NCBI GenBank assembly: GCA_002698145.1
Contig: NZVG01000032.1
Coordinates: forward strand, 28,415 to 75,423
Source: Methanobacteriota archaeon
GTDB taxonomy: Archaea; Thermoplasmatota; Poseidoniia; Poseidoniales; Poseidoniaceae
Reading direction: 5' to 3'
DNA length: 47,009 nucleotides
The notes beneath the pieces are model-generated. The model saw only the letters and a list, made by a program, of their open reading frames with translations. It did no database searches and was not told where the DNA came from. Positions 8,371 to 29,600 of the stretch are shown here, one piece after another. Position numbers and translations under genes: made by a program. Within the stretch, counting starts at the first letter, position 1, and the number at the start of each line of letters is the position of its first letter.

Positions 8371-8380
8371 GTTGGCTATC

Positions 8381-9127
8381 ATGCCCATCGATCGAATGCA
8401 ATGGGGAGCGGAACCTTGGCAGTATGCAGACTTGCACATGCCGGATGAACCATCGCCTTTCCAAAACGACCATGGCGTTCCATGCATCATGTTGATCCAT
8501 GGAGGATTCTGGAAAACAGAATACACATCCGACCTAATGCAACCTATCGCCAACGCATTGAGCGATGCAGGTGTTGCAAGTTGGAACATCGAATTTCGCA
8601 GATGGGAGGACGGTGACGAAGGAGTTTGGATGGATACGCTCTCCGACGTTCTTCGTGCTTGGGGCCAGTTGGCCCTGTTGCCCGGCATCGACATCACCCG
8701 GAGCATGGTTATGGGGCACTCTGCTGGAGGTCATTTGGCTCTCTTAATGGCGAGCAAGGCCGAACGAAAACCTTGGTTGACCATCGCACAATCACCCATC
8801 ACAGATTTGTTTGGAGCTGATGATGCAAAACTGAGCGATGATGGCGATGCTGTTCGTAAATGGATGGGATGTTCGCCGTACGAAAATGAGGCATTATGGA
8901 GAAAAGTCAATCCAATCGATCTACCGCCTCGTTCGCCTGTTCTCCTGATTCATGGAGAGCGTGATGTCGATGTACCTCTCGAACAGACTGAAACCTATGC
9001 ACGAGCGATGAAAGCGAAGGGCTGTGACATTCAGAAGGTATGGCTCCCCGGCGATCATTACAGCATTATTGATGCTGCAAGCGATGATTGGCTGGTTCAA
9101 CAAGATGCAATTTTGGATTGGCTCTGA
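8381..9127 (+). CDS. Alpha/beta hydrolase, kynurenine formamidase-like
   Basis: A 248-residue serine hydrolase. It has the oxyanion motif HGGFW (residues 40-44), as in hormone-sensitive-lipase and arylformamidase families, and the nucleophile elbow GHSAGGHLA with Ser114. The acid lies in HGERDVDVPLE and the His in GDHYSII. The arylformamidase/kynurenine formamidase family is the closest guess, but a general carboxylesterase is also possible. The ATG at 8381 is preferred to a TTG nine bases upstream. It starts 10 nt after the aspS stop, so co-transcription is likely. No signal peptide is seen, so it is cytoplasmic. If it is a formamidase it could connect to the aminophenol-type genes downstream, but that is speculation. 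Confidence 0.85.
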   Translation: MPIDRMQWGAEPWQYADLHMPDEPSPFQNDHGVPCIMLIHGGFWKTEYTSDLMQPIANALSDAGVASWNIEFRRWEDGDEGVWMDTLSDVLRAWGQLALLPGIDITRSMVMGHSAGGHLALLMASKAERKPWLTIAQSPITDLFGADDAKLSDDGDAVRKWMGCSPYENEALWRKVNPIDLPPRSPVLLIHGERDVDVPLEQTETYARAMKAKGCDIQKVWLPGDHYSIIDAASDDWLVQQDAILDWL

Positions 9128-9144: not shown

Positions 9145-9978
9145 ATGGCACTTGTAGGGCCAATCATGGACCTCTTAGGAGACCAAGCAGTACTTCAGAA
9201 CCATGCACTACAAGGAAAAACTGCATTGATATGCGGTGCAAGCCGGGGGATTGGAGCAGCAACGGCACGTATCATGGCGAAAGCCGGTGCAAACGTCATC
9301 CTCGCCTCGCGTAATGAGGAACAACTCAATTCCGTATTCGAGGAACTCTCAGAACTCGGAAACGGTCATCATCAAACACTTGTCATGGACTTGGAGAACA
9401 CAGAAGCCATTGCAGGGTGTTTGCAGCCAATTCTTGACAAGGGTCCGATTCATATCCTGATTAACAATGCAGGCGGACCTCCTGGAGGCCCGTTGTTGGA
9501 TGCAAGCGTTGAGGAACTTTCTCAACCGTACGCTCGTCATTTACACGCCGCCCACACATTGGTCAAATTGCTCATTCCTGGCATGGTTGCGGAAAACTAC
9601 GGACGTATCATCCAAATTATTTCGACCAGTGTCCGTGAACCCATTCAAAACCTCGGTGTCTCCAATACGTTGCGTGGAGCGATGGCATCATGGGCAAAGA
9701 CGCTCTCGCGAGAACTTCATCCATCCATTACAATCAACAACGTTCTACCTGGTTTTACCGATACAGAACGCTTGGGGAGTTTAGCACAATCAATCCATGA
9801 GCGAACAGGTCAATCCATCGAAGCGATTCATGATGGTTGGATGAGCCAAGTTCCCATCGAGCGATTAATCGATCCGTTGGAAACTGCTTCGGTTATTGCA
9901 TTCCTTGCTTCACCAGCCGCTGGAGCGATTCGTGGTGTTTCTCTCCCAGTTGACGGTGGGCGTCTTCGAAGCATCTGA
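9145..9978 (+). CDS. Short-chain dehydrogenase/reductase with a non-canonical active site
   Basis: A 277-residue Rossmann-fold SDR. The cofactor motif CGASRGIG is at residues 30-37, the NNAG motif at 107-110, and a C-terminal LPVDGG segment resembles the usual 'DGG' end. Arg56 at the end of the second strand suggests NADP. The catalytic Ser region (ISTS, 159-162) is present. Where the YxxxK pair should lie the sequence is SNTLRGAM, so Tyr is replaced by Ser173 and Lys by Arg177. A subgroup of SDRs with this substitution may exist, but the reaction is unknown. The gene starts 17 nt after the hydrolase stop, consistent with one operon. A second Met at residue 8 is a possible start. Confidence 0.88.
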   Translation: MALVGPIMDLLGDQAVLQNHALQGKTALICGASRGIGAATARIMAKAGANVILASRNEEQLNSVFEELSELGNGHHQTLVMDLENTEAIAGCLQPILDKGPIHILINNAGGPPGGPLLDASVEELSQPYARHLHAAHTLVKLLIPGMVAENYGRIIQIISTSVREPIQNLGVSNTLRGAMASWAKTLSRELHPSITINNVLPGFTDTERLGSLAQSIHERTGQSIEAIHDGWMSQVPIERLIDPLETASVIAFLASPAAGAIRGVSLPVDGGRLRSI

Positions 9979-10225: not shown

Positions 10226-11659
10226 TCATTTGTTACGGCCGGTCAAAGACTCACGGAAAGATTGGAACGGTGTCTTTGATATTTGCGCATACCTCTTTCC
10301 ATAAAGGAAGTACGTGACCAGACCTGCTGCAATGGCTGCCGAGGCGCCAATGAAGGCTTTGTCACCAATGAAGTAGATCAAGAAGAGCCCAGCAACGATG
10401 CCCCATATCTGCATGAATGGGTAGAAGATTCCCTTGTAGGAGGGGTCCCAACCGTGACGATCACTGGTTTGGCGAAGGATGATGACGCACGTGTTAATCA
10501 TGATGAAAATCATAATTTTGAAACCAGATGCTAGTTTAACGACGTCTTTGAGTGGTACGAAGAAGATAGCCAAACCCATGGCAACACCCGTTACGATAAT
10601 TGGCCAATGTGGTGTTTCGTATTTCTCATGGACACGCTCAAGCGCCGGTGGAAGCAACTTGTCTTGGCCCATGGCGTACAAAAATCTCGAGGAGGCTAGA
10701 ATTCCAGCAAGTGCCATTGAAATCATGGCTAGGACAGAAATAATGGCAGCGACTATGCCGAATTCGGTTCCGACAACTTCCTTTGCAAATACATAGATTG
10801 GGTCTTCGACAACTTTCCCATCAACTTTCCACCATTCTCCTGGAATCGCGGCCATCATGAGGTAAGCAATGGCAGAATACAGGATGGTCGCAATGAGCAA
10901 TGAAAGGAGCATTCCTGCGGGTAGATTCTTTTCTGGATCTTTGACTTCACCACCAATGGCGGCAACTTTTGTCACACCAGCGTATGCTACAAACACAAAG
11001 GCAGAGGTTTCGGCAAGTGTCCACAAATCCGTATCGAAGGCTGCTCTAAATGGACGGCCACCGTCGAAACCATCGACAAAGAAAGCTGCGACACAAGTAA
11101 TTATCAGCATGGCCAGGGTTACGAAGAGGACCGGCGTTTGAATTGCCTTGACCTTCTTGACACCAAGAATGTTCACGATGGTGATGAGTACCAAAGCACT
11201 CATTGATAGAACCATCATTCGCATTTGAATATCAAAATAGGTAGTGACTGCAATGAAGTATGCTGAAAAGCCAATCAGAGCAAAACCTGATTTGAGCAAA
11301 AACGATGCCCAAAGTCCGAGTCCGCTTATCGTCCCAATCATTGGACCATAGGTTCGCTCAAGATAGACATAGGAACCACCGCTCGATGGCATACCTGAAG
11401 ACAATTCTGCTTTGGATATTGCAGCGGGTAGAACAACTGCTGCCGCGACGATGAATGCAAGCCAAATTCCAGCACCCATAATGTCTGCTGCGAAGGTCGG
11501 GGTGACAAATATCCCTGGCAGCATGGCCGAGAGCGAGATAATGACAACACCGGAAAGACCCACACTTCGCTTGAGTGTTTTCTTGATTGTGTCCGTTCCT
11601 TTTTCTACGATAGAATCGAGTTTTGAAATTACGGTGGAATTGGGTTTTGAAATCGCCAT
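10226..11659 (-). CDS. APC-superfamily amino acid permease
   Basis: A 477-residue integral membrane transporter of the amino acid-polyamine-organocation superfamily, with about 12 hydrophobic segments. The first helix region reads VGLSGVVIISLSAMLPGIF, the unwound TM1 of APC carriers. Further signatures are SSGGSYVYLERTYGP, the FVAYAGVTKVAAIGGEVKDPEKNLP segment typical of TM6 and its loop (shown across residues about 230-255), and ASSRFLYAMGQDKLLP. It probably imports an amino acid or a related amine by cation symport; the substrate cannot be read from sequence. It lies about 110 nt downstream of the AmnA-RidA gene on the same strand, with its own TATA-like box, so a link to that catabolic cluster is plausible but unproven. 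Confidence 0.9.
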   Translation of the reverse strand: MAISKPNSTVISKLDSIVEKGTDTIKKTLKRSVGLSGVVIISLSAMLPGIFVTPTFAADIMGAGIWLAFIVAAAVVLPAAISKAELSSGMPSSGGSYVYLERTYGPMIGTISGLGLWASFLLKSGFALIGFSAYFIAVTTYFDIQMRMMVLSMSALVLITIVNILGVKKVKAIQTPVLFVTLAMLIITCVAAFFVDGFDGGRPFRAAFDTDLWTLAETSAFVFVAYAGVTKVAAIGGEVKDPEKNLPAGMLLSLLIATILYSAIAYLMMAAIPGEWWKVDGKVVEDPIYVFAKEVVGTEFGIVAAIISVLAMISMALAGILASSRFLYAMGQDKLLPPALERVHEKYETPHWPIIVTGVAMGLAIFFVPLKDVVKLASGFKIMIFIMINTCVIILRQTSDRHGWDPSYKGIFYPFMQIWGIVAGLFLIYFIGDKAFIGASAAIAAGLVTYFLYGKRYAQISKTPFQSFRESLTGRNK

Positions 11660-11769: not shown

Positions 11770-13164
11770 TCAGATTTTTGCAATAACCTTCATTTCGACG
11801 GCGATTGGAGTTGGCAGTGCACGAATAGCGAGTGTTGTTCGAGTAGGTCCGTAGTGGCCAAGAGTTTCAGCCCAGACCTCATTGTAGCCCGCAAAGTCAC
11901 GATCCATATCGACCAAAAAGGAGGTGACATCAACCACTTTTTCCATCGAAGACCCTGCCTCTTCAAGTATACGCGAAATATTTTCAACAACCGCTCGTGT
12001 TTGAGCCTTGATGTCGTATTCGAGGGGTTGGCCTTCGCCGTCTCGGATAGGACCGCCGGGTATTGCGTTTGTTCCGGGCTGTCGCGGCCCTACACCAGAA
12101 AGGTACAGCAAATCACCGACTCGTCGAGCATGTGGATAGAGACCCACTGGCTTCGGAGCTGCATCGGTGTTTACTGCATCCTCGCCTTCAGCGGGGTTCC
12201 ATAATGCAGGGCCATTATCGCTTGAGGGAGGTGCCTGCTCAGTTTCAGAACCAGCAGTATCGAGAACATTTCGTTCACCACGATAGACATCCACATCGTC
12301 TTCATCGTACTCCTTGTCGCCTTGTCCATTCGAGGTCGGATCGAGGTGAACAACTGCACCTCCCGCACCGTGCAGGGCTTCGTATGCGAGCACTCGGCCT
12401 GTGAGGTCGTTTCGATTGTCGTTCATTGCTGAAAGCCACCACATCGGTTTGAAGGTGACAACCTTCTGTACACGTATTTGCTGGTGAATGGTTCGAGAGA
12501 GTTGGGCGACATCTTCAAGTCGACCCTCCTCCAGGAACTCAAGCACCTTTCGATTCCATTCATCGTCTTTGAGTGAGTGGATTTTATCTTCGGATGCATC
12601 AATGAATTCTGTGAACATTCGATTTGACATCGACATTGCAGTAACTGCAACAGCCTTCTTTCCAGATGATTTGAGAACGTCCAAACAGGCCTTTGCAAGA
12701 ACAGTGGTTTCTGCACGGTTTGCATAAACGTTTGAAGAAACGATGACAGCTGGAATCGCATTATCAGGATTGAGCAATTTAAGCGCAACAACCGAGCCTA
12801 CATCGATTGGAAAACCATGGTAAGCCACTGTTCGACTCTGAAGACCGCGAGCATGGTTTGCTTCGTTCCAAGCATGAGCAAAATCAGCATCAATCCGAAA
12901 GGAATAGTCCATCGAGCCCAAATCGTGGAAATCCTGGTCAACAAGCGTCCACGTTGGATTTGGGTCTGCTTGAATCTGATGACCGATAATGCTCGGCCAC
13001 GTCGTTGAATAGATGATGAGCAAATCCGCATCGCTTTGTGCGATCTGTTCACGCGCTTCATCGAATGCATCACGCAATCGTTGCCAGCCTTCGTTCTGAT
13101 CAGGAACCAACAGTGGGTGTGGATGGACTGGTACAACATAGGATGCTAAAATTGGATTGGCCAT
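11770..13164 (-). CDS. 2-aminophenol 1,6-dioxygenase alpha-like (AmnA) domain fused to a RidA-type 2-aminomuconate deaminase domain
   Basis: A 464-residue fusion when started at 13164 (MANPILASYV); a longer start at 13197 would overlap amnB. Residues 1 to about 265 are a LigB-fold extradiol dioxygenase domain resembling the non-catalytic alpha subunit AmnA (YSTTWPSIIG and YHGFPIDVGSV segments). The PHPPH-type iron ligands seen in the partner are not intact. An acidic low-complexity linker (about 266-337) follows. Residues 338-464 are a RidA/YjgF domain of the 2-aminomuconate deaminase kind: YPHARRVGDLLYLSG, DFAGYNEV, and GPTRTT with the conserved Arg, plus a late Glu. It would hold the ring-cleavage partner and release ammonia from 2-aminomuconate in one polypeptide. 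It starts two bases after the amnB stop, with GGAGG upstream. Family calls are strong; substrate is inferred. Confidence 0.87.
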   Translation of the reverse strand: MANPILASYVVPVHPHPLLVPDQNEGWQRLRDAFDEAREQIAQSDADLLIIYSTTWPSIIGHQIQADPNPTWTLVDQDFHDLGSMDYSFRIDADFAHAWNEANHARGLQSRTVAYHGFPIDVGSVVALKLLNPDNAIPAVIVSSNVYANRAETTVLAKACLDVLKSSGKKAVAVTAMSMSNRMFTEFIDASEDKIHSLKDDEWNRKVLEFLEEGRLEDVAQLSRTIHQQIRVQKVVTFKPMWWLSAMNDNRNDLTGRVLAYEALHGAGGAVVHLDPTSNGQGDKEYDEDDVDVYRGERNVLDTAGSETEQAPPSSDNGPALWNPAEGEDAVNTDAAPKPVGLYPHARRVGDLLYLSGVGPRQPGTNAIPGGPIRDGEGQPLEYDIKAQTRAVVENISRILEEAGSSMEKVVDVTSFLVDMDRDFAGYNEVWAETLGHYGPTRTTLAIRALPTPIAVEMKVIAKI

Positions 13165-13166
13165 AC

Positions 13167-14063
13167 TCAAACCTCCTCGTGCAAATAACATGGCCACTCA
13201 ACAATTGCATTACCCGTTCCGATGATTGTCCCGTATCCATGGAGCGTGGCAGGGTAAGATGGTACAGAAAGGGTGCTGAGAAGCCAAGTGAGGCCTCCCC
13301 CATCCGATTCGGCGATTGCTTGTTCAGTAAATTCGGGCATCTCATCGATGATTCGTTTGGCTTGTCCCGTTCGCATGTAATCGATAATACGCATGTCCCA
13401 AAGATGCATAGCATGGCTGGCGATATGCTCTTTGCTCATGTCCTCAGGAACATCGGATTCGGTTGTGAAATGACGATGAGAGAGCGAATTGGAAGCAAGG
13501 ACAACGGCTTTCTTTCCGCTTTCATGAATCGCGTCTCGAGTCACACGTCCTAATTCCATCATCATCTCTTGCATAACTTCGACAGAGTAGTAGTGCCTGG
13601 AGCGATTCGAAGAAATAACGACCAACGGCTTGTCAAATGCTGGATTGACCATGTGCCCTGTCGTAATGGTCCCATAATCAACTCGGAAATCTGGATTTTC
13701 CATCATTTTCACAGCCAGACCTGCATCAGCTGCTTTGTCATGAATGGCTTTGCTCAGCTCGACATCAACATCGAGATTGTAGGAGTAACGGAACAGATTC
13801 GGGAAGATAGGATCCACCGAAAGTCCCTCAAAGTTTGGTAGTCCGAGGAAATGGGTTCCAACATAGGTTTGCCAATGTGGCGAAAGAATGACCAGAACGT
13901 CGTGCTCGATTTTGGAAAGAGATTCACGAAGTCGTTCATAGCCCCATCGGAGTTGCTCCCATCCACCTTCGGAAGTCGGTTCGTTTTGTGGAGGGTTTTC
14001 TGCGTAGACAAGGTGGGGCGGGTGTGGAGCAAGACAGCCTGCAACAATTGAGCCTTTGGCCAT
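13167..14063 (-). CDS. Extradiol ring-cleavage dioxygenase, 2-aminophenol 1,6-dioxygenase beta (AmnB) type
   Basis: The 298-residue catalytic subunit of a LigB-superfamily dioxygenase. It has the PHPPHLVYAENPP signature near the N-terminus. Predicted Fe(II) ligands are His14, His63 (LSPHWQTYVG) and Glu252 (AIAESDGGGL). These are each one residue beyond His13, His62 and Glu251 of the Comamonas enzyme as I recall it. The expected reaction is O2-dependent opening of an aminophenol ring to 2-aminomuconate 6-semialdehyde, though a substituted aminophenol, catechol or 3-hydroxyanthranilate is also possible. The next gene encodes the alpha subunit with a fused deaminase, two bases downstream, so the subunits are translationally coupled. 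A CATATG-containing element about 25 nt upstream (near 14084-14091) may be the TATA box. Cytoplasmic. Confidence 0.88.
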   Translation of the reverse strand: MAKGSIVAGCLAPHPPHLVYAENPPQNEPTSEGGWEQLRWGYERLRESLSKIEHDVLVILSPHWQTYVGTHFLGLPNFEGLSVDPIFPNLFRYSYNLDVDVELSKAIHDKAADAGLAVKMMENPDFRVDYGTITTGHMVNPAFDKPLVVISSNRSRHYYSVEVMQEMMMELGRVTRDAIHESGKKAVVLASNSLSHRHFTTESDVPEDMSKEHIASHAMHLWDMRIIDYMRTGQAKRIIDEMPEFTEQAIAESDGGGLTWLLSTLSVPSYPATLHGYGTIIGTGNAIVEWPCYLHEEV

Positions 14064-15527: not shown

Positions 15528-16973
15528 TCAATCGTGTTTGATGCAAACATTCAGCGGCTCGGAAAAGAAACCAAGGCTCCAGGCGCCACCTTCTCGTCCA
15601 AGACCAGAGTTTTTGACACCACCAAAAGGTGTACGTAAATCACGGTGCAGCCAAGTATTGACCCAAACAATTCCAGTTTGTATTTTTTGAGCGATTTTGT
15701 GTGCTCGATCAGTGTCATTCGACCATATTGATCCAGCCAAGCCATACTCCGTAGAATTTGCAATCTCAATGGCTTCCTCATCGGATTCGAATCGATGAAT
15801 GGTTACAACAGGTCCAAAAATTTCCTCTGTAGCGGTACGAGATGTGTGCTGAAGACCATCGATAACGGTCGGTCTCAAGAAAGCCCCTTCAGGCGAGGGG
15901 CCAACTTGTCCGGTCATTTCACGGGTACCCCCCGTGAGAACGTTTCCTCCCTCTTCAATTCCGAGTTGAATGTAGGATTCCACCTTTTCCATGTGCTCTT
16001 GGCTGATGAGTGCTCCGATTTGTGTGGATTCATCCTCTGGGGAGCCGCAAATCATTTCGTCGACAAGCTGGATAAGTTTGGAAGTGAATTTCTCGGCAAT
16101 GGAGGCATGTACGAGGATTCGAGAACCGCACAAACAGACCTGTCCACCGTTTGTAAATCCCGCTCGAAGCGCTCCGTTAACAGCCACATCGAGATCTGCA
16201 TCATCGAGGATAATGGTTGCATTTTTGCCCCCCAATTCAAGTGAGAGTTTCTTGAACATTGGCGCAGCCGAAGCAGCAACATGTCGTCCCGTCGCAGTAC
16301 CCCCTGTAAAGGAGATAGCTCGAATGGAAGGGTGGTCCAGAATTGCCTGCCCAACCTCTGGACCATAGCCATGAACAACGTTGAGTACACCCGAAGGGAG
16401 ACCGATCTCCGAAGCCACCTCGCACATGAGATTTGCAGTCAGCGGTGTAAGTTCACTCGGTTTTGCAACAACTGTGTTTCCCATCAACAACGCTGGCGCA
16501 ACCTTCCAACTCAACAAATAGAGCGGAAGATTCCATGGAGTAATCAACCCAACCGTTCCGACCGGGTTTCGATGCACAAAGTTGGTTGCATCACGCATTT
16601 CAAACACCTCAGGTTCTTGGTTCCGAGCAAAATCAGCAAAGAATCTGAAATTGTCGATTGAACGTTGTGCATCCACTCGTCGAGCCAAGGCTAGTGGTTT
16701 ACCGGTATCTCTTGACTCACGATGGGCGAGTTCTTCTTTCCGTGCCTCAAGCCCATCTGCAAGACGATCTAGCCACGTTGCACGCTCAAGCATATCCAAC
16801 GAGGACCATGCTTCTTGTGCACTAGCAGCTGCTTTTACTGCTTCTTCGACGTCTGAATCCTTTGACCTCGCAATCGTTCCAATGGTTTGGCCTGTAGCAG
16901 GATTGAGATTTGTCAGTGTTTGTCCATCGGTAGCATCAACAAATACACCGTTTATGAAATTCAAGGCATTCAT
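15528..16973 (-). CDS. Aldehyde dehydrogenase, 2-aminomuconate/2-hydroxymuconate semialdehyde type
   Basis: An NAD(P)-dependent ALDH of 481 residues. The start at 16973 (MNALNFINGVFV) overlaps the upstream stop as ATGA; a longer frame from 17021 adds an unaligned tail. Catalytic residues are visible: Asn148 in PWNLPLY, Glu247 in LELGGK, and Cys280 in GGQVC. The C-terminal run VNTWLHRDLRTPFGG... (about 437-466), ending in GREGGAWSLGFFSE, is typical of the 2-aminomuconic and 2-hydroxymuconic semialdehyde dehydrogenases (AmnC, DmpC, ALDH8A1). It is the enzyme needed between the AmnAB dioxygenase and the deaminase domain encoded nearby: it would oxidise 2-aminomuconate semialdehyde to 2-aminomuconate. 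Last of three coupled genes with the luciferase-like monooxygenase and the asparaginase-II homologue. Confidence 0.9.
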   Translation of the reverse strand: MNALNFINGVFVDATDGQTLTNLNPATGQTIGTIARSKDSDVEEAVKAAASAQEAWSSLDMLERATWLDRLADGLEARKEELAHRESRDTGKPLALARRVDAQRSIDNFRFFADFARNQEPEVFEMRDATNFVHRNPVGTVGLITPWNLPLYLLSWKVAPALLMGNTVVAKPSELTPLTANLMCEVASEIGLPSGVLNVVHGYGPEVGQAILDHPSIRAISFTGGTATGRHVAASAAPMFKKLSLELGGKNATIILDDADLDVAVNGALRAGFTNGGQVCLCGSRILVHASIAEKFTSKLIQLVDEMICGSPEDESTQIGALISQEHMEKVESYIQLGIEEGGNVLTGGTREMTGQVGPSPEGAFLRPTVIDGLQHTSRTATEEIFGPVVTIHRFESDEEAIEIANSTEYGLAGSIWSNDTDRAHKIAQKIQTGIVWVNTWLHRDLRTPFGGVKNSGLGREGGAWSLGFFSEPLNVCIKHD

Positions 16974-18097
16974 AGATCCATCTCCGCATCGTACATCCAT
17001 CGGTCCTGATCGGGATCCCATTCATCCCACGTTGGAATGGTTTCGAGTTCCTTGATGTAACGCTCGGGAACAATGCCCGGGACAATAAACGCTTTTTGTC
17101 GATGCAGAGGGTAGGGATTTCTTAGGTCAATGCCCAAGACTCCGAGAATTGCACGAGCAACATACCACGTCGCTTGTGCATTCCAACCATGAGCGATTTT
17201 GATAACAATTCCAAGGCCCTTTGGGTAATCGGGATGCTCGATCGCTAAACCGAGCAAACCGTCAGCACCTTCCTTGGCAATGACCGCCCCTTCACCGGCT
17301 TTGAGAATGGTCGAATCCAAGCGATTGAATCCACCAACAAGATCGGGATGACGAACCATTGCTTCCCAAATCCAATCCTCATCCTTGTCTCGAACAAGTC
17401 CTGCGTATATTTGTGCAAGTTCGGCGACTGTGTTGGAAACAGTTGGTAAGCCGCAACCGTCTTTTGCGATTCTCTGTGGAGTCCAATCCTCACCGATAAA
17501 TCGTCGAATTTGCGTCATGTATGCCTCAAACACTTGATGACTTGGCAAGGTATACCCCGCACGATTCCAGCCTTTCTCCCTGCAGCCACGCAGAATCGCA
17601 GCATGTTCTCCTGAGCATGTATGATACCATCGACGAGGACGACGAACTTGTCGACCGAATTGAATCAATGGAACGTCAAGTGGGGTCAACATCAGTGGCC
17701 ACTCAGACTCCGAAAGGAGCGATTGCGCTGCAGAAACGTGCTCAGTATCGCCGTTGTGGCTCGCAACAGAGATTGCTTTTTGTTCCCACGAAAGGTCAGC
17801 CAGCTCTTCAACGAATGCTTTGAGCATAAATGGCTTCATCATCGAGCGACCATAGCACAGGACATTTCCCCCAAATGAGTGGATGACTTCATCCCCATGC
17901 GCCCAAGCAACTGCGCCGTGAATTGTCGTTTCTGAGACGCCGTTCCGTCGATAGTCCACAAGTGGCTCCCAAGCTACGTCACGGCCTGTTGGGATGCCTT
18001 GAACCTGCTCACCGAGTGGTGAATCGGGGAACAACTCGCTTCCCGGCCGACCGGGTTTTACTGCGGAGTGCTTATGGTGATTGATTCGCATTTTCAA
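16970..18097 (-). CDS. L-asparaginase II (AnsA/thermolabile type) family hydrolase
   Basis: A 375-residue member of the family typified by Rhizobium etli inducible asparaginase, unrelated to classical asparaginases. Visible signatures are GRSMMKPF with the Ser85-x-x-Lys88 pair, ASHNGDTEH, TCSGEHAAIL at 160-169, and DGCGLP with Cys215. In the R. etli enzyme the middle motif is CSGKH and its Lys helps bind zinc. Here it is Glu164, so substrate or chemistry may differ. The gene overlaps the upstream luciferase-like gene and the downstream ALDH gene by four bases each (ATGA), giving tight translational coupling. An amide-hydrolysing step in the same catabolic route is the most natural reading; plain asparaginase activity is the alternative. 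Confidence 0.82.
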   Translation of the reverse strand: MKMRINHHKHSAVKPGRPGSELFPDSPLGEQVQGIPTGRDVAWEPLVDYRRNGVSETTIHGAVAWAHGDEVIHSFGGNVLCYGRSMMKPFMLKAFVEELADLSWEQKAISVASHNGDTEHVSAAQSLLSESEWPLMLTPLDVPLIQFGRQVRRPRRWYHTCSGEHAAILRGCREKGWNRAGYTLPSHQVFEAYMTQIRRFIGEDWTPQRIAKDGCGLPTVSNTVAELAQIYAGLVRDKDEDWIWEAMVRHPDLVGGFNRLDSTILKAGEGAVIAKEGADGLLGLAIEHPDYPKGLGIVIKIAHGWNAQATWYVARAILGVLGIDLRNPYPLHRQKAFIVPGIVPERYIKELETIPTWDEWDPDQDRWMYDAEMDL

Positions 18098-19323
18098 GCA
18101 CCTCCGAGAAGTTCTTCAACACGTGGAACGACTTTTTCCATGTATGCACGCATGTTTCGACATACACGGTCGCTGTCGTGATTGAAGAAGTCGAACCAAG
18201 CCATGACCCGATCGTCCGGATGGAAGCGTTGTACGAGTTGTTGAGCAACGTCCTCAACGTTGCCAATGAGTGCATTCTGTGCAGCATTCTGCACCTTGTT
18301 TGGATCGATGGTTCCCTCGAGTGCACTCCAATATGCACCAAGCGCTTTTTCTGCCTCTTTGTGGGCAGCATCGCGTTGTTCTTCTGACGAAAGTCCTGCT
18401 TCATCGTTCACGAACACGAAACTGGTTCGGGGCATGTCCGACCGCTTCCATGAACCACCATCGGTGTGGAAACAAGCCCGCATTCGTTCATGCGTTGCTT
18501 CGATAACCTCGGGTTGCGTGATTGAAAGATTAAACACACGTACCGGTAAGAAGGAGTTGACAAAAATTTGAGCCTTCGGATCGTGTGTTCCCGCAACGAG
18601 AACCAACTGATTTCGATCGAAGGTGTTTGGAACGATGCGGATGTCCTCAAAGGTGTACCGTCGCTCAACATTGATCGCATCATCCAAGGATCCGTTCGCC
18701 TCTTGTACCCGTTGCCAATCCTCATCGCTTCTGAAATTCTCACGAGTCAATATGGTTGGGCGCACCGAATCCGATGAAACCACATCTCCTCGCAACAATC
18801 GTAGGAAGATTTCACTTGCTTCGAGAAAAATCTGTCCTCGCAGTGCAGGCCATGCTGCCTCTTCAACAGGCGTACGTGGGACAATGCCATATGGGCGTGC
18901 CATGAATTCAAAACGACCCGCTGAGAAACCTACGTGAAGACGCCGATGATCATCGCTCACCGCAAGAAGTTGCAACGTGTTGGCTATTCGCTCCGCTTGT
19001 GCGATTGGTCCTCCAGATGCGAGGATGGATACAACAGCGCTCCCGATTTCAATGTTCTTTGTTCTGCGGAAAGATTCCATTGCAAGTTGTGGAAAATCCG
19101 TGCAAAGGCCAACCTCTCCTTGCCAGTGTGGCACAACCGGTTTGCTGTTGGATTTTTGTGTCTCAGTGGAAAGATGGGCTTGTGCAATCCAACCAACTCC
19201 AAAGCCTAAATCATCTGCACATTCCAATTGCTGGAAATAATTCTTCAGCATCGTTAACTCATTGGGGATATGCCCATCGGCATCGGGCGTTTGACTGATG
19301 GAAAAGAAAATGTCGTGTTCCAT
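18094..19323 (-). CDS. Luciferase-like flavin-dependent monooxygenase
   Basis: A 409-residue bacterial-luciferase-fold (LLM) protein. The TIM-barrel start has the usual pattern: a first strand FFSISQTP, then CADDLGFGVGWIAQAHL, where the family commonly has an acidic or His residue. It continues with IGSAVVSILASGGPIAQAERIANTLQLLAV and RLHVGFSAGRFEFMARPYG (given here as separate family blocks). These enzymes use reduced FMN or F420; the cofactor cannot be told from sequence. Members oxidise or hydroxylate aromatic and N-heterocyclic compounds, aldehydes and alkanesulfonates. GAGG upstream of the ATG is a plausible ribosome-binding site. Its stop overlaps the start of the asparaginase-II gene in ATGA. 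In this context it may be the entry oxygenase of the cluster; the substrate is unknown. Confidence 0.87.
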   Translation of the reverse strand: MEHDIFFSISQTPDADGHIPNELTMLKNYFQQLECADDLGFGVGWIAQAHLSTETQKSNSKPVVPHWQGEVGLCTDFPQLAMESFRRTKNIEIGSAVVSILASGGPIAQAERIANTLQLLAVSDDHRRLHVGFSAGRFEFMARPYGIVPRTPVEEAAWPALRGQIFLEASEIFLRLLRGDVVSSDSVRPTILTRENFRSDEDWQRVQEANGSLDDAINVERRYTFEDIRIVPNTFDRNQLVLVAGTHDPKAQIFVNSFLPVRVFNLSITQPEVIEATHERMRACFHTDGGSWKRSDMPRTSFVFVNDEAGLSSEEQRDAAHKEAEKALGAYWSALEGTIDPNKVQNAAQNALIGNVEDVAQQLVQRFHPDDRVMAWFDFFNHDSDRVCRNMRAYMEKVVPRVEELLGGA

Positions 19324-22095: not shown

Positions 22096-24057
22096 TTTTT
22101 CAAGACGCTCTGGCGTACCCATGTCCCAAAATTTTGTTGAATCCAAGTGAACATGTATTTCGTTTGCCATTGCCGAATAAATCGTGTTCTCCCAAGACCA
22201 TGGCCCATCTTTGCCATGCTCGAGGACAACGGATTTGCTTACAATGGATGTTCCTGCCTCGTATCCGTTAAACGTCGGTGGCGGTTCTTGTTGCTTCGAA
22301 TACTGAATCAGTCGACCACCCTCATGATGAAGATTCATGGATTCATGCTCTGTGGTGACGGTCATCGTCAGCGGTGATGATTTCTCTCTGTGATGTTTGA
22401 CGAGCGAGGAATAATCGATTGGGTGGTAATCATCGCCCCAGAGCAACATGAATTCATCCTCAAGTGATTCTCTCGCATTCCATAATGCTCCGCCAGTCCC
22501 CAATTGCTCAGGTTCCTGAACAAATGTCAGTTCGATTCCGGGATGGACGAATCCTGCAAATTGTTCCCCATGGTGGCCAGTCAGGACAAGTGCACGATTG
22601 CATCCTTGAGATTTGACCCAATCAAGAATATGGGACAAGATTGGTTTCCCGCCGACCTCGATGAGCGATTTTGGTTGATGTTGGGTTTTCTCACCAAGTC
22701 GGGTTCCTAAACCTCCAGCAAGAATGACCACTTGTGGCATACGGTGCGATTTTGCAATGGAAGCGTACAGTGCACCACTTTCGCGAAGCGTACGTTTTTG
22801 AGTTTCAAAATCAACATGGTACAAACCAAAACATTGCTCATAGCCTTCTGCCCACTCGAAATTGTCCATAAGACTCCAGTGATAGAATCCAAGAATATCG
22901 TGGCCATCAGCAATTGCCTCTGATGTTATCTGTAAATGTCTGCGCACGTGTTCAGGACGCATGTCATCGTCGTCATCTGCCACACCGTTCTCTGTGACGA
23001 TCATCGGTAGATTTAGTGAAGCAACCATCTCAAAGGCGCGCTTCAATCCCTCTGCATACATTGGATATCGAAAATCAGTACGTTCTTCCCACGGACGAAT
23101 CAATGGGTCGATCTCAACCTTTGTTGGCATGAACGGTGTAGCAAGGAGATGAGTGTAGTAATTTACACCTATGAAGTCACTGCTTCCCTTTAATCCTTCA
23201 ATCGAAACGCTACGAAGTGCTGAGGGCGGCTTAAACCGACCGGTTTTCAGCCCATTGATCCAGCAACGATTGAACATTCCATCCAGAAGATTTGCTTGGA
23301 ATCGATGCAAGGGATTCCAACGCCTGTACGGGTCGAAGATGTTGATGTTTTTGACAAGCCCAATCTTCGTTATCGAACCATTGGCCATGGATTTCAGTGT
23401 ACGATAGCAGCGGGCATGAGCCCGCATCAAATTGAGAGAAACTCGACGTGTTTTCTTGAACGATCGCTCCCCTGGTGGAAATTCTCCGAGGATGTATCCC
23501 ATCGAGGCGTAAACCGCTGGTTCGTTTATTGTACACCACCATTCCACGCGATCACTCAAAACTTCAAACATTCTCGAGGAGAATCGAATCCAATAAATGA
23601 TGTTGGATTCCTTTTCAAAGGCACCCAAATCTTCCCACCAGAGTGGATTCGTAAAATGATGCAGTGTCACCATCGGTTGAATCCCACGCTCAAGGAGACG
23701 ATCGACGAGATCACTGTACCAAGCAATCGCATCCTCATCCCATTCACCCATTGTTGGTTCAATCCGACTCCATTCCAAAGAAAATCGGTAATGCGTAACA
23801 TTCAGATTTTGAATGAGTTCAAGATCTTGTTCCTTTCGATTCCAATGGTCGCAAGCAATACCACTGGATTGCCCGCTTTTCGAAGTAGGTTCAAACCGAG
23901 TCCAATTATTTGTGTTACCACCCTCGATTTGGTGCGATGCAGTTGCAACGCCCCACATAAAATTCGGTGGGAAGGCTTGTCCATTCAGGAGCTTAGTATA
24001 ATCAACATCGGACCAGTTACGATGTTCTTCAACGCCCATAGCATCACTGACCATCAT
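22063..24057 (-). CDS. Glycoside hydrolase family 1 enzyme fused to a sugar-1-phosphate nucleotidyltransferase
   Basis: A 664-residue two-domain protein with start at 24057, overlapping the upstream stop in ATGA. Residues 1-439 are a GH1 retaining beta-glycosidase: WGVATASHQIEGG, the acid/base Glu179 in TINEP, the nucleophile Glu356 in VTENG, and GFYHWSLMDNFEWAEGY near the end. Residues 440-664 are a nucleotidyltransferase beginning MPQVVILAGGLGTRLGE, with the PKSLIEVGGKP and WGDDYHP segments typical of glucose-1-phosphate uridylyl/thymidylyl/mannose-1-phosphate enzymes. The junction has no stop or frameshift. Together with the galactokinase opposite, it forms a logical route: hydrolyse a beta-galactoside or glucoside, phosphorylate the sugar, then activate it to NDP-sugar. 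No signal peptide, so the glycosidase acts inside the cell. Sugar identity is inferred. Confidence 0.88.
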   Translation of the reverse strand: MMVSDAMGVEEHRNWSDVDYTKLLNGQAFPPNFMWGVATASHQIEGGNTNNWTRFEPTSKSGQSSGIACDHWNRKEQDLELIQNLNVTHYRFSLEWSRIEPTMGEWDEDAIAWYSDLVDRLLERGIQPMVTLHHFTNPLWWEDLGAFEKESNIIYWIRFSSRMFEVLSDRVEWWCTINEPAVYASMGYILGEFPPGERSFKKTRRVSLNLMRAHARCYRTLKSMANGSITKIGLVKNINIFDPYRRWNPLHRFQANLLDGMFNRCWINGLKTGRFKPPSALRSVSIEGLKGSSDFIGVNYYTHLLATPFMPTKVEIDPLIRPWEERTDFRYPMYAEGLKRAFEMVASLNLPMIVTENGVADDDDDMRPEHVRRHLQITSEAIADGHDILGFYHWSLMDNFEWAEGYEQCFGLYHVDFETQKRTLRESGALYASIAKSHRMPQVVILAGGLGTRLGEKTQHQPKSLIEVGGKPILSHILDWVKSQGCNRALVLTGHHGEQFAGFVHPGIELTFVQEPEQLGTGGALWNARESLEDEFMLLWGDDYHPIDYSSLVKHHREKSSPLTMTVTTEHESMNLHHEGGRLIQYSKQQEPPPTFNGYEAGTSIVSKSVVLEHGKDGPWSWENTIYSAMANEIHVHLDSTKFWDMGTPERLEKLEQFFNESSL

Positions 24058-26654
24058 TGAGCCCGAGTCCAAGAACCATCGCTACCAACATTCCAGTACT
24101 GCAATTCCGTGCTTGCATCAACGTACCAGCCAGTCTCACCTTGGTTCGTTCCTGGAGCCGCTTGCATCACGCCGACTTGACCGGCCTTGGTCGCCAATTG
24201 TTGGCGTAGATCCGAAGCAAGTTCAGGCTCGGTGTATGTTTGGCTTGGCAGAGACTGAACAGTTGTTGCGGATGGTTCTTCAGCAACGATTTCAGGAACG
24301 CCTGTGAGTTGCTCCTCAACATCTTCTGACACTTCATAGAATTCCTCTTCATCCCATTCGTCTTCATCGCCTTTTTGATTGCCTCGGCGTATAAGGACGA
24401 CCAGAACAATGAAAATCATCAACAGCAAACCGATGATAATTGAGACTGCGGTATTGGTCGAACCGAGCGCTCCACTTAGGAGTACGGATTCAACGTCAAA
24501 GAATTGTTGAGAAATCAACCCGTTCCACGTAACAGTACAGGACCGGTCCGAGCCCGCCTGCTCAAGTTCAACTTCCCACGTATCGGACTTAACGTGCGTT
24601 GCTTTTCCTGACGTGCAGGATAGGCTGGTTCGTTCGGGATTTACCTCAACCCGATTTCCTTGCGAATCCTCAGCATGCACGGTGATTAAGGTGACTTCTC
24701 CTTGACTTCTCGTCTCATTCGCCATGCCCGTGATGACCCGTACAGCTTGGCCTGGAACGATGGTTAGTGGCAGCGTGTGTTTCGCATCTCCTTGAGCCAG
24801 TTCAAGGTCGTAGGTTCCGCTTGTGATACCGGTGAGTTGCCAGAATCCGCGCCCGCTTGATGAAGCATCGAAAAGAACGAAATCTCCGGATATTAATTCC
24901 ACACTCTCTGCAGGGGCTGTGTTTCCGTGAACATCGACCAATTCAACAAAGAGATCGGATGGAACACCGGCTTCGATGATCAAGCCTTCATCGCCGTCTG
25001 TCATTAGTGAGGTTCCTGTACCGGGAACGACGTTTATTCGCACGGCTGCAAAAACACCATCAGCGTTTGCACGAATTTCGTGTTCACCGGTTTCTGTTGG
25101 GTACCATTTACCATCAGCCATGCGAATTTCGAGGGTGCGATCTTGACCAGCAATGGTCCAATTGACAGCCACATGGGGAATGATGTTTTCATATGCATCC
25201 ATGAAAAGTGGATTGAATTCGAGGTACGAATCTGCAGCAACTTCCGTCCCAGATTCCGGCAACTCGATGAAGGCTAACCGCCCCGGCAAAATTTCATCGG
25301 TCCATTGCGATTGGTGCAGCACACCTGTTGATGGATCAAAGTAGTTAGCGCTGAACCCAAGCGTTTCAATTTGTTTCGGCATTACAGAAACGTAAGATTC
25401 GAAAATGTCAACACTTGCGAAAACGCCATCTGTTTGGGTAATGTTGGCTTCTATTTGCCAGACATTTCCAAACGAATCCATCGCTTCATGAACCAGAGCC
25501 ATTTGCACTCCAGAAGATACAGAGGATTGGCTTGGGACGAGTCGGGTGACGTCCGCTGAACCATGCATTACCTCGACGTTAATCGAAGCAGGCACATCGG
25601 AATCAACGACATGCAAAGAATACTCACCTGCTTGTCCTGGCGTCCAATGAACCTCGTTGTCAACTTGTGAGAGAATACCGTTGTTAACCGACCAATTGCC
25701 GATTGGAATTGGAACCGCTGAAGAATAGCCTTGTGAATCTGTGCGAATAGCATCCAGCCGATAGACTTCTCCTGAAACGTAAACATCTGCATGGGGCGTG
25801 GTTTGTACTTCAACGATGGAGGCATCAGCAGGAACAACGTGTATTGTACTGTTACCCCAAATCGCTCCAGCCCTGACCGAGAGATTCCAGATTCCTGGGG
25901 CTGAGGCATAGTAATAGCCTACAGGTGTAATGGTTCCATTTTCAACATCCCATACCTTGTTTCCAGCAAGCGTATTGTTCATCTTTTGCCCATAGGAATC
26001 AATGAGGTCAGGGTACAATTGCAATCCTTCCCCACTTCGTAATACCAAATTCTCAGGGAAGACAAATTCGTAGGGCTCACCCGCTATTGCTTCCATGATC
26101 ACTTGTTTTTCTAATTGGTCGTATCGAGCAACAACCTTGTACAGGCCGAGTGATGGGGGCGTCCATGCAGGTTCTCCTTGTCCAATGTAGGTGCCATCAA
26201 CTGTCCACACGACATCATTACCTGGTCGCGGATTGTCGTGTGAATCAATGAGGTTTGCCTGCAACGTGAACGGAAATTTGGCACGCGGCTGTTCAGTCGT
26301 ATTGATGTCAATGGATTGACCAAAACCTGCGACAACGGTTACAACGACAGTGTCATTGAAACCTCCATGGTCAGCACGAACAGTAACTTGACCGGCTGAC
26401 CAAGGGAAAAAGAGTCCGCTTGGTTCAATGGTTCCATTGCTTGCAGACCATGTAATCTCCCCATCAACAACGTTGTTCAAGGCGTCGTAGAGTGTTGCTT
26501 CCATCTGCAAGACGCCATCGGAGGAAATTGTTGTTGATGGCGTTGAGATAACGATTTGCGCAGGTGGGCCAGCGGCCGTTGCCGGAATGGACGTGAGCAG
26601 AGAAGCGAGCAACAAACTGCAGAGCAATACTGCGGAATGTTGCTTGCTCATCAT
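24054..26654 (-). CDS. Secreted, membrane-anchored Ig-like (Big-domain) surface protein
   Basis: About 866 residues with start at 26654; 26651 is equally possible, and AGGTGAG lies just upstream. A signal peptide (SAVLLCSLLLASLLTSIPATAA) leads into repeated bacterial Ig-like domains with the pattern 'D..GN.V....' and 'W....G.i...G.f.P...G..tv.a', as in WSASNGTIEPSGLFFPWSAG. One transmembrane helix (SIIIGLLLMIFIVLVVLI) follows near the C-terminus. The cytoplasmic tail is acidic and ends in a Trp-rich motif, GWYVDASTELQYWN..SDGSWTRAQ, that resembles actinobacterial DUF2510. A similar motif ends the giant protein immediately upstream (stop 26660, five bases before this start). The genes form one operon with similar architecture. 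Probably an adhesin or cell-envelope protein. Confidence 0.85.
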   Translation of the reverse strand: MMSKQHSAVLLCSLLLASLLTSIPATAAGPPAQIVISTPSTTISSDGVLQMEATLYDALNNVVDGEITWSASNGTIEPSGLFFPWSAGQVTVRADHGGFNDTVVVTVVAGFGQSIDINTTEQPRAKFPFTLQANLIDSHDNPRPGNDVVWTVDGTYIGQGEPAWTPPSLGLYKVVARYDQLEKQVIMEAIAGEPYEFVFPENLVLRSGEGLQLYPDLIDSYGQKMNNTLAGNKVWDVENGTITPVGYYYASAPGIWNLSVRAGAIWGNSTIHVVPADASIVEVQTTPHADVYVSGEVYRLDAIRTDSQGYSSAVPIPIGNWSVNNGILSQVDNEVHWTPGQAGEYSLHVVDSDVPASINVEVMHGSADVTRLVPSQSSVSSGVQMALVHEAMDSFGNVWQIEANITQTDGVFASVDIFESYVSVMPKQIETLGFSANYFDPSTGVLHQSQWTDEILPGRLAFIELPESGTEVAADSYLEFNPLFMDAYENIIPHVAVNWTIAGQDRTLEIRMADGKWYPTETGEHEIRANADGVFAAVRINVVPGTGTSLMTDGDEGLIIEAGVPSDLFVELVDVHGNTAPAESVELISGDFVLFDASSSGRGFWQLTGITSGTYDLELAQGDAKHTLPLTIVPGQAVRVITGMANETRSQGEVTLITVHAEDSQGNRVEVNPERTSLSCTSGKATHVKSDTWEVELEQAGSDRSCTVTWNGLISQQFFDVESVLLSGALGSTNTAVSIIIGLLLMIFIVLVVLIRRGNQKGDEDEWDEEEFYEVSEDVEEQLTGVPEIVAEEPSATTVQSLPSQTYTEPELASDLRQQLATKAGQVGVMQAAPGTNQGETGWYVDASTELQYWNVGSDGSWTRAQ

Positions 26655-26659
26655 CTCAC

Positions 26660-29600
26660 CTAATCCTGCCATTGGACCCAATCGCTTTGTCCTGGTTCAC
26701 GATAGTACCATGTTCCATCTTCACTCTGAGCCCACTCGGTCCCATCATCATCCATGCGTTGATCCACGATCCAACTCGTGTCTTCTTTTTCTTCCTCTTC
26801 GGCAGGAGGTGAACCAGTAGGGCCCGTTCCAGGTGCTGGACCACTCGGACCCGGTGCTCGGCCTGTTGGGCCACGAGCAGAACGTGGCTCATCGTCTTCG
26901 TCATCGTAATCGTCGTCCCAATCATCGTCGTCTCTGCCTGAACGCAAGGCCATAACAAGAAGGACAAGAACGACTGCGACAATAAGACCGATGAGGACCG
27001 CTCCAATGTAGTACAGGGTGCCACCTGCAGCAAAGAATCCGCCGAATGTGCCGGTGACCTCAATCTCGTAATTTTCACTTACTTGCCCCGCTGAAACGGT
27101 GATTGTTTGAGGGCCACTTTCCAGAGTTGTGACCTTGAAAGTACCTTGGCCAGTGTTTTCTACCGTACCGCGTCCAGTTGCATCAACTCGTGCGCTGCTC
27201 GGAACAGGGATGGGGTTTGCAAATCGGTCAAAGGCTTGAACGGTTATGTCGATGGATGCTTGTTGATCAACCTTGACTGCTGACAACTCAACTTCAATGA
27301 AGTCAACAATCATTTGCGGTGAAATCTTCAATTCGAACGTGTTGCTCGCACCGGGTGTGGAGTATTCCATGATGTGATCTCCAGCAGCTGAAGCTTGGTA
27401 TGCGTAGGAACCAGTGACGGAACCCGGGATGACTCGATCGGATAGGGAACCGTCCTCAATCCACTCAACATCTTGCGGGAAAGTGTTTCCATCGCTGTCT
27501 GTGCCTGTGATGCTAATATCAATCGATTCACCTGCATCCTCGTCGAAGGTATTCAATTCGTGATCGAGTGACACAGCCACTCCATGATAGACTGAGATGT
27601 CTATCGAGCGGGTGTAATTGAACCCATCTGCGTTTTCAACGTAGGCCAAAACTCGATAGTTTCCGACTGTGGTTGCCTCCCATTGGTAACCGTCTGCAAC
27701 AAATGTGCTTGTTATGTCGGTCACAACGCCGGCGTCTGTGTCCTCAAACATCCATGTCAATACATCCACGTCCAGTGGGTTCAAATCTCCGTCGCTCAAT
27801 GAAACAGAGAAGTCAATTGATTCATCTGCACTGATGTTGTAGACCGTTCCTGTATCACCGTTGGAAGCGATTGTGTCCATCGTGAACACCTGTATGATGC
27901 CCTCAGAAACTTCAACGTTGACAATTTCACTAAACAACTGACCGTCGAACGTGTACTCAGCACGCACAACATAGGCCGTCGTTGAGGCAAGAATAGGCAT
28001 GAATTCTGTTTCATCAGAGAGTGTGTACAAGAGGACGGATTGTTCGCTCCAATCGGGATGAGCAACGGTCCAATTGACATCAATCGTCCAGCGATTTCCT
28101 TTTCCGTCGCTCGCCTTGGCTTTGACAACGAAGGTCTCATCAGCAGTCATACTGTACGTTTCACCGTCAGCATCCTCGGAATCAACAATCAGGACCATGT
28201 CGACCATGATACCCTTGGTAACATTGATTGTGATGGACTCAAAAATGGTCTCATATTGTGCGGAGATGACGCGTCCACCCAAGCCACTCGGAATCCATTG
28301 AACGGGATGATCGAGTGTGATGTTCAATGCACCATCCGAAATCGACGTCCAGTTGGCAAGTGGTAGCACGACTGGGAGTCGATTTCCTTGAACGTCAATG
28401 CGTGTCGTGTTGAGGAAAACAACATCATCAGCTGTGATGTCCCATGCGGATGGAACGATCTCAAGTGACGCCATTTGCCCATGGCCTGTTTGTATCGGAA
28501 TTGAATCCGAGAGACCAATCGCTGAGGTGAGAGAGAGTTGCCACATACCGACTGTGTTGGCGAAGTACATGTTCGTCGCTTCGCTGTAAAGCCCATCGTT
28601 GACGCTGTAGGAAAGAGCACCTGCCTCAGTGAGAGGTATGATGTTTCTGTACTGATCGTACAACGTTGTCGTAATTTCACATTCTGTTCCAGCAGGAACA
28701 ACACCGCTGCATCCAGTTAGTTCAATGTCAGCAGGAGCACCCAATTCAACGAGAATGTTGACGACGATTGAGGTGGTTTCCCATGTAACCGTCACTGTTT
28801 GTCCGCCGACTGCATACGGTTGGAAGATGTCTCCGAACGTTCCACCCATGGTACCGTTGCTTGGAGTGAAGGTGATGCTCTCCCCTGGTACGGCATTTCC
28901 ATGTTGATCAACCACGTCTGCAGACAGTTCAAGGGTTTCATCCGCAGTAATTGTTGCAGTAAGAGGTGTAACGACCAAATCAACCGCAGCGCCTGGTGTT
29001 ACAGTCACACTTTCATCTTCGCAGATGACACCGAAACAGGCAGTCACGGTATGCGTGCCTACGGTTGTCGGCGTGAACAATCCGGTCGAGTCGATGCTGC
29101 CGCTGCTTGCAGACCAAACAACAGGCACACTTGCAACAAGTGAATTGTAATCAAAGGTCGAAGCGCTGAATTGTACTGCGGAATCTGCATCGGTCGTCGT
29201 TGCTGTTGGTGAAATGGTGACGGAATCAATGTCTGTGTAATTCATCAACAGCAGTGGACGCTTGGACAAGGTCTCCTCACTGTTGTCAGCGAACTCAACC
29301 TCCATCCATCCTTGTGAAGGCGTTCCAATAATGACCCAACTGTGGACACCGTCAATGTACATCATTCGGTGACCCAAATTGAAGTTGATTGTCGTATCAA
29401 TCGCTTGAAGATTGCTCATGAAGAATGTGTCGATTGGTGTTGAATCATAATCAACACCCGCCTGCATACCCGGAGCAGCCCACAAAGCGGCTCCGGTTCC
29501 GTTCCATGTCGCAGTGGTTTCCGACCAGCCTGTGGTGATGACTCTGTGCACTGTGAAGGTCATTCCTGTAGCACCTGCTCCGAAGATAAAATCTTCAAGA

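Follow-up and report, generated by a model that had tools for sequence, protein, structure and literature searches.

The breakdown of 2-aminophenol in bacteria follows an established order, in which the dioxygenase AmnAB is succeeded by a dehydrogenase and then by a deaminase (PMC10470539, PMC3790839). The alpha and beta subunits of the ARO enzyme, a dioxygenase of this type associated with a microcompartment, form alpha2beta2 dimers (PMC10470539). RidA proteins are trimers, and the deaminase AmnE is a hexamer (PMC6742747); AmnJ is a second RidA protein found in the bacterial amn operons (PMC3790839).

The locus described here encodes a related system. In common with AmnAB and CnbCaCb of Pseudomonas AP-3 and Comamonas CNB-1 (8ihg, 3vsg), and with the ARO microcompartment enzyme (7txy), it has adjacent alpha and beta subunits of the LigB fold with iron ligands only in beta; the identity to these enzymes is 55% for beta and about 30% for alpha. 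The proteobacterial amn operons differ from it in having a separate deaminase gene, AmnJ, a MarR or other regulator, and a full lower pathway. In the window, by which we mean the whole stretch of 47,009 nucleotides that was analysed, the RidA domain is instead part of the alpha subunit. On the evidence of sequence, it appears moderately probable that this fused protein serves as the alpha subunit, without iron, of a predicted 2-aminophenol 1,6-dioxygenase, with AmnB as its partner and a 2-aminomuconate deaminase domain of its own, and, as part of the same judgement, that it belongs to a tryptophan-degrading operon in which the predicted middle steps involve a Baeyer-Villiger oxidation of kynurenine.

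The fused protein and its partner subunit

The fusion, AmnA::RidA, is encoded on the minus strand (11770..13164) and has 464 residues when read from its ATG; an upstream GTG at 13197 is an alternative start that would extend it to 475. The LigB-type alpha subunit (residues 1-276) is followed by an acidic AmnA extension (about 280-300), a variable linker (about 297-325), and a RidA domain of the 2-aminomuconate-deaminase type (330-464). Pfam recognizes LigB at residues 21-263 (E 3.6e-12) and Ribonuc_L-PSP/RidA at residues 334-463 (E 1.9e-25). Among PDB entries, residues 5-275 are matched best by 2-amino(chloro)phenol 1,6-dioxygenase alpha subunits, namely 7txy_A, 3vsg_A, and 8ihg_B (E 3.5e-38 to 6.7e-36), and residues 333-462 by the 2-aminomuconate deaminase 6izh (E 8.4e-26). 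The AlphaFold2 model contains two confident domains with a disordered join (297-322), and its Foldseek matches comprise RidA proteins, 6izh among them, and the alpha subunits of aminophenol dioxygenases, with a TM to target as high as 0.94.

An earlier note on this DNA had proposed an AmnA-type alpha subunit, which is borne out by the LigB and dioxygenase matches, and the sequence motifs that it named are found in the protein. The note had also described an acidic linker. An acidic stretch is indeed present, but its first part is the conserved extension GDKE[YF]DEDDV...GDRNVL (about 280-300; GDKEYDEDDV..RNVLD), with which AmnA ends in archaea whether it is fused or not (other Poseidoniales have it at the C-terminus of a free-standing AmnA) and which the bacterial aminophenol dioxygenases lack. 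The truly variable linker is confined to the roughly 25 residues that follow.

The gene for AmnB, the catalytic beta subunit of 2-aminophenol 1,6-dioxygenase (13167..14063, minus strand; 298 residues; 8ihg_A, E 7e-110; 3vsg_B, E 1e-108), lies next to that of the fusion with a spacing of 2 bp, both being of the LigB type. All 118 AmnB sequences compared have the His/His/Glu iron ligands and the active-site His, which AmnA has not kept, so the fused chain would be the non-catalytic subunit of the dioxygenase.

The RidA domain is 41-43% identical to AmnD/AmnE, as compared with 24-27% to AmnJ, and an AmnJ-type identity was rejected on these values and on the tree. In an ML tree that included canonical RidA, the operon RidA sequences and AmnD form one clade (support 99/99.9), and the operon RidA shares with AmnD/AmnE an Lp2 loop about 13 residues longer than that of canonical RidA, although this extension has been lost in the versions from Marine Group III (MGIII). 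The sequence evidence favours a place within the 2-aminomuconate deaminase clade, in keeping with what the earlier note had suggested, but AU tests do not reject the alternative placements (p 0.19 and 0.28). The domain might otherwise deaminate imines in general, or act as a structural spacer, and have no pathway-specific role; Arg105, Glu120, and Tyr17 are conserved in both types of RidA, and the grouping with canonical RidA is not rejected by the AU test (p 0.19). That AmnE is the best match, with the nearest generic RidA 18 bits behind, together with the shared Lp2 insertion and the clade with AmnD, makes such a generic role quite improbable.

Distribution and history of the fusion

An AmnA/RidA query was matched in 59 of 60 related genomes. 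The fusion is kept in essentially all of the genomes sampled, at 85-98% identity within the genus of the window and 61-79% within its family, and two further Thermoplasmatota families also have AmnA::RidA fused. A scan of 84,980 species genomes yielded a best 80 loci that are mostly bacterial. With all loci pooled, 58 are fused (one of which, L037, has an undetermined stretch in AmnA), 29 have adjacent but split genes, and 16 have the genes apart. No relatives were found in the viral collection. The statement in the earlier note that these genes are separate in the known bacterial aminophenol operons holds for the proteobacterial xenobiotic operons but not for bacteria at large, as fused versions are found in at least six phyla, namely the Planctomycetota, Myxococcota, Acidobacteriota, Bdellovibrionota, Latescibacterota, and Krumholzibacteriota. 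Since the same uninterrupted fusion is conserved in tens of genomes across the genus, the family, the two other Thermoplasmatota families, and many bacteria, a sequencing or assembly error joining two genes is ruled out, and the fused protein is genuine.

In a tree of AmnB, the proteobacterial aminophenol enzymes are split off from the whole set, which forms a single clade (support 100) with fused members in every deep branch. Separate AmnA and RidA occur only in MGIII, where the two genes overlap, in most of the sister family f2, where they are mostly adjacent, in one Bdellovibrionota group, and in two single loci. Fusion is the commonest state in this large clade, and the distribution suggests that it is probably old and was followed by repeated fission in several lineages. 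Within f2, genus g15 still has the fused form, with a longer linker in two of its three members.

A number of further features were seen in these loci. The separate RidA proteins of f2 (L042:4109-4744, L038:8799-9446, and others) often carry a glycine-rich, glycine-zipper-like N-terminal extension (GAAAGAVVGGPVGAVAGSIVGKKTA), which is absent from the fused family f1 and, in L041, is retained inside the fusion linker. In seven Bdellovibrionota loci (L153, L161, L162, L174, L177, L178, and L184), the gene for AspII, a hydrolase described below, lies between AmnA and an unfused RidA, which suggests that gene order and fission changed together. Among cultured carriers, Sulfidibacter corallicola has AmnB, AmnA, and AspII at one locus. 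In the AmnB tree, L164, from a bin named Flammeovirgaceae, falls with MGIII, and L172, from a bin named Streptomyces griseus, falls with the Bdellovibrionota; both are probably mis-binned or misnamed metagenome-assembled genomes.

Neighbouring genes and a predicted tryptophan route

The minus strand of the window encodes an amino-acid permease, AmnA::RidA, AmnB, panB, an aldehyde dehydrogenase, AspII, and a luciferase-like flavin monooxygenase (LLM), and the plus strand encodes a short-chain dehydrogenase (SDR) and an alpha/beta hydrolase with an HGGFW motif. The aldehyde dehydrogenase (15528..17021, minus strand) is of the 2-aminomuconate-6-semialdehyde dehydrogenase type by its best PDB match (4u3w/4i1w, E 7e-143); its best NCBIfam model is TIGR03216, 2-hydroxymuconic semialdehyde dehydrogenase, at a score under the cut-off. 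AspII (16970..18097, minus strand) is an asparaginase-II-like protein (PF06089, E 6.7e-49) and a putative aspartyl-ester hydrolase. It matches the Rhizobium asparaginases 8cly and 7os3 remotely, and its Ser-x-x-Lys, Ser-His, and Lys motifs do not vary among 28 relatives, for which the column identity averages 75%. The AspII of the window has Cys-Glu-Cys instead of the Cys-Lys-Cys zinc site, with Glu for the Zn-ligand Lys of ReAV, and for this reason is not classed as an asparaginase. Across phyla, AspII proteins of this operon type are 69-83% identical to that of the window, a level of conservation that points to a dedicated substrate.

The LLM gene (18094..19323, minus strand) overlaps that of AspII by 4 bp. 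Its product is assigned from Pfam, AlphaFold2, and Foldseek and is a putative kynurenine Baeyer-Villiger monooxygenase. The Bac_luciferase match is weak in the window protein and above cut-off in relatives, and the model, with a pLDDT of 90, retrieves flavin monooxygenases, luciferases, and the type II Baeyer-Villiger monooxygenase 4uwm, the type II enzymes not being ranked first. A sequence search of solved structures returned no relative, and the Baeyer-Villiger chemistry is consequently deduced from context.

The SDR (9145..9978, plus strand; Pfam) has a relative that lies between tryptophan 2,3-dioxygenase (TDO) and LLM in MGIII and in bacterial operons. Beside it lies the HGGFW hydrolase (8372..9127, plus strand), which matches Pfam BD-FAE and carboxylesterases in the PDB. 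Directly downstream of the fusion, an APC-family amino-acid permease (10226..11659, minus strand; Pfam AA_permease_2), which is also found near the cluster in other Poseidoniales, is a candidate for uptake of the amino-acid substrate. Elsewhere in the window, two related proteins are encoded side by side, one of 3050 residues (26660-35812) and one of 875 (24054-26681); the larger is predicted to be a surface protein and has an acidic tail as well as a membrane anchor at its C-terminus.

The association of this cluster with TDO and kynurenine formamidase, which the earlier note overlooked, is evident in other genomes. In MGIII, the genes for TDO, SDR, LLM, AspII, the aldehyde dehydrogenase, AmnB, AmnA, and RidA are contiguous, with overlapping genes, and TDO is found with the same gene set and the fusion in bacterial loci such as L145, L171, and L208 and in the Thermoplasmata locus L147. 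A member of the kynurenine formamidase family adjoins the RidA gene in 22 of the 80 best loci, usually directly after AmnA::RidA; three that were scored against TIGR03035 gave 193-207 bits, the curated cut-off being 223. No PF04199 formamidase was found in 36 Poseidoniales relatives, which leaves the deformylation step of Marine Group II (MGII) as a guess, and the HGGFW hydrolase is possibly the N-formylkynurenine formamidase of this lineage. The MGIII loci have, in place of kynurenine formamidase, a formyltransferase-like gene overlapping RidA, and the encoded PF00551-like protein possibly takes the formyl group off N-formylkynurenine, perhaps onto folate. Genes of this kind overlap or adjoin the operon RidA or SDR genes at L124:4848-5564 and nine more loci, mostly of the MGIII type, and at L200:3003-3746.

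Co-occurrence was assessed in 97 genomes across the Thermoplasmatota, a single phylum in which the counts are not phylogenetically independent. AmnB is present in 22 of these, and LLM is found in 20 of the 22 as against none of the other 75; for close AspII (at least 70% identity) the figures are 22/22 and 0/75, with distant homologues (near 30%) in eight genomes that do not have AmnB, and for TDO they are 20/22 and 6/75. In both genomes without LLM, and in one of the two without TDO, the cluster is located close to the end of a contig. Among the close relatives, 55 of 60 have TDO. It is on another contig in the window genome, and within the Poseidoniales its neighbours are haem-synthesis and housekeeping genes, with no pathway genes among them. 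Kynureninase scores above cut-off in just two of 44 operon-bearing genomes, one of which is a bin where the contig bearing the operon resembles contamination from MGIII, and in one of 60 relatives. Matches to FAD_binding_3, the family type of kynurenine 3-monooxygenase, occur in all genomes, but the best cluster and those examined are geranylgeranyl-reductase-like, which makes such an enzyme an unlikely candidate, a divergent kynurenine hydroxylase being still conceivable. FAA_hydrolase matches, which are candidates for 4-oxalocrotonate decarboxylase or hydratase, number about one per genome, and further breakdown in MGII by a decarboxylase, a hydratase, and an aldolase is conjectural.

Kynurenine is an aryl ketone. 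In the route that we propose, TDO and a formamidase would convert tryptophan to kynurenine, a step supported by gene content, and LLM would then insert an oxygen into the bond that links the keto carbon to the ring, producing a beta-ester of L-aspartate with a 2-aminophenyl group. Hydrolysis of this aryl-aspartate ester by AspII would yield L-aspartate and 2-aminophenol, the substrate of AmnAB. These two middle steps are ones that we infer from gene content and chemistry; such an ester intermediate would need a monooxygenase and an enzyme for a beta-substituted L-aspartate, and the presence of LLM beside AspII therefore counts for the route. The later steps follow from what is known of the families: AmnB/AmnA would open the ring to give 2-aminomuconate semialdehyde, the dehydrogenase would oxidize this to 2-aminomuconate, and the RidA domain would release ammonia to form 4-oxalocrotonate, which the SDR, an enoyl-reductase-like member of its family, might speculatively reduce to 2-oxoadipate. 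That this represents an undescribed route of tryptophan degradation, shared by marine archaea with six or more bacterial phyla and relying on LLM and AspII instead of kynureninase to deliver L-aspartate together with 2-aminophenol for a deaminase-carrying dioxygenase, is a claim we hold to be evenly poised. Among the open-access papers searched, as judged by title and abstract, none describes a pathway joining kynurenine, a Baeyer-Villiger step, and 2-aminophenol, or an aminophenol cluster in the Poseidoniales.

Within this proposed route, the fusion would hold deaminase and dioxygenase at a 1:1 ratio in one particle, with several alpha-beta units assembled around a RidA trimer or hexamer. The earlier note had raised the idea that an unstable product is channelled. 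Direct channelling of the amino-semialdehyde appears doubtful, because in the known route a separate dehydrogenase must first oxidize it; direct transfer from ring opening to RidA would need that dehydrogenase to be docked between them, or RidA to act on the semialdehyde itself. The frequency of natural fission suggests that tethering is helpful but not essential.

If the last steps ran in the reverse order, channelling would be an evident purpose of the fusion. RidA, placed by the fusion at the dioxygenase, would act directly on the ring-opening product, converting 2-aminomuconate semialdehyde to 2-hydroxymuconate semialdehyde before it cyclizes to picolinate, and the dehydrogenase would then oxidize the hydroxy-semialdehyde. 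Picolinic acid does arise from the semialdehyde in Burkholderia LB400 (PMC3790839), and the best NCBIfam model of the dehydrogenase is of the hydroxy type. However, its best PDB match is an amino-semialdehyde enzyme, the RidA groups with 2-aminomuconate deaminases, and the sequence known from bacteria has oxidation first, so that we judge this order decidedly unlikely. The pathway might also follow a more classical kynurenine-type course, in which LLM hydroxylates kynurenine at position 3, kynureninase is replaced by a PLP enzyme that has escaped recognition, AmnAB acts on 3-hydroxyanthranilate or 3-hydroxykynurenine, and AspII is the formamidase. The linkage to TDO and formamidase would be accounted for, and 1,6-cleavage by AmnAB breaks the same type of bond as the 3,4-cleavage of 3-hydroxyanthranilate, which is established chemistry. 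Yet 42 of 44 operon genomes and 59 of 60 relatives lack kynureninase, there is no ACMSD-type decarboxylase among the conserved neighbours, and there are loci with both formamidase and AspII, in which AspII is therefore unneeded as a formamidase; we consider this course unlikely, if not strikingly so. Finally, with AmnAB being 2-aminophenol enzymes and with an amidase-type gene present in bacterial aminophenol operons as well, the cluster could serve to break down external 2-aminophenol-like compounds such as phenoxazinones, benzoxazinoids, or aromatic amides, LLM and AspII acting on amides or esters of this kind and the tryptophan link being incidental. This is highly improbable given that the linkage to TDO and kynurenine formamidase recurs across phyla, and that a cluster near-universal in free-living pelagic archaea is better explained by a common amino acid than by a rare xenobiotic.

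Significance and comparison with known systems

The archaea of Marine Group II have not been cultured, and few archaea are as abundant in the sunlit ocean. A near-universal tryptophan cluster would give them a core amino-acid-degrading pathway. If the proposed middle steps are true, the conversion of kynurenine to 2-aminophenol and aspartate would require neither kynureninase nor KMO nor 3-hydroxyanthranilate dioxygenase, and functions would be provided for two orphan subfamilies (LLM and PF06089). The route would also explain how 2-aminophenol arises in nature and where the aminophenol dioxygenases that were later met in pollutant degradation come from. As sister families hold fused and unfused versions, the fusion also lends itself to testing what enzyme tethering does.

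AmnA::RidA is a novel form of an enzyme pair that was already known, and it is not confined to archaea; it is the pathway reading that would be new. The operons of AmnAB, CnbCaCb, and the ARO enzyme are without the LLM, the asparaginase-like gene, and the TDO of the window-type cluster. The RidA domain has the long Lp2 loop of the 2-aminomuconate deaminases AmnE/AmnD (6izh; 41-43% identity) and groups with them in the ML tree, but AmnE/AmnD is a free homohexamer whereas the RidA of the window is a domain on a dioxygenase alpha subunit, with Gln for Arg56; this AmnE hexamer residue is an assembly trait rather than a catalytic one and varies among the relatives. LLM has the same luciferase-like flavin monooxygenase fold as the type II Baeyer-Villiger monooxygenases, such as 3,6-diketocamphane monooxygenase (4uwm), to which it is about 12% identical, although other luciferase-family enzymes match its model better. 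AspII belongs with the Rhizobium etli-type L-asparaginases ReAIV/ReAV (8cly, 7os3) in PF06089 and keeps their Ser-x-x-Lys, Ser-His, and Lys motifs, differing in its remote identity and in the Glu that replaces the Zn-ligand Lys. Set against the canonical kynurenine pathway (TDO, KynB, KMO, KynU, HAO, ACMSD, AMSDH, and deaminase), the operon type has TDO, a predicted semialdehyde dehydrogenase, and a predicted deaminase in common, along with a formamidase at some of the loci, but it has no kynureninase, and LLM, AspII, and AmnAB are found in place of KMO, KynU, HAO, and ACMSD.
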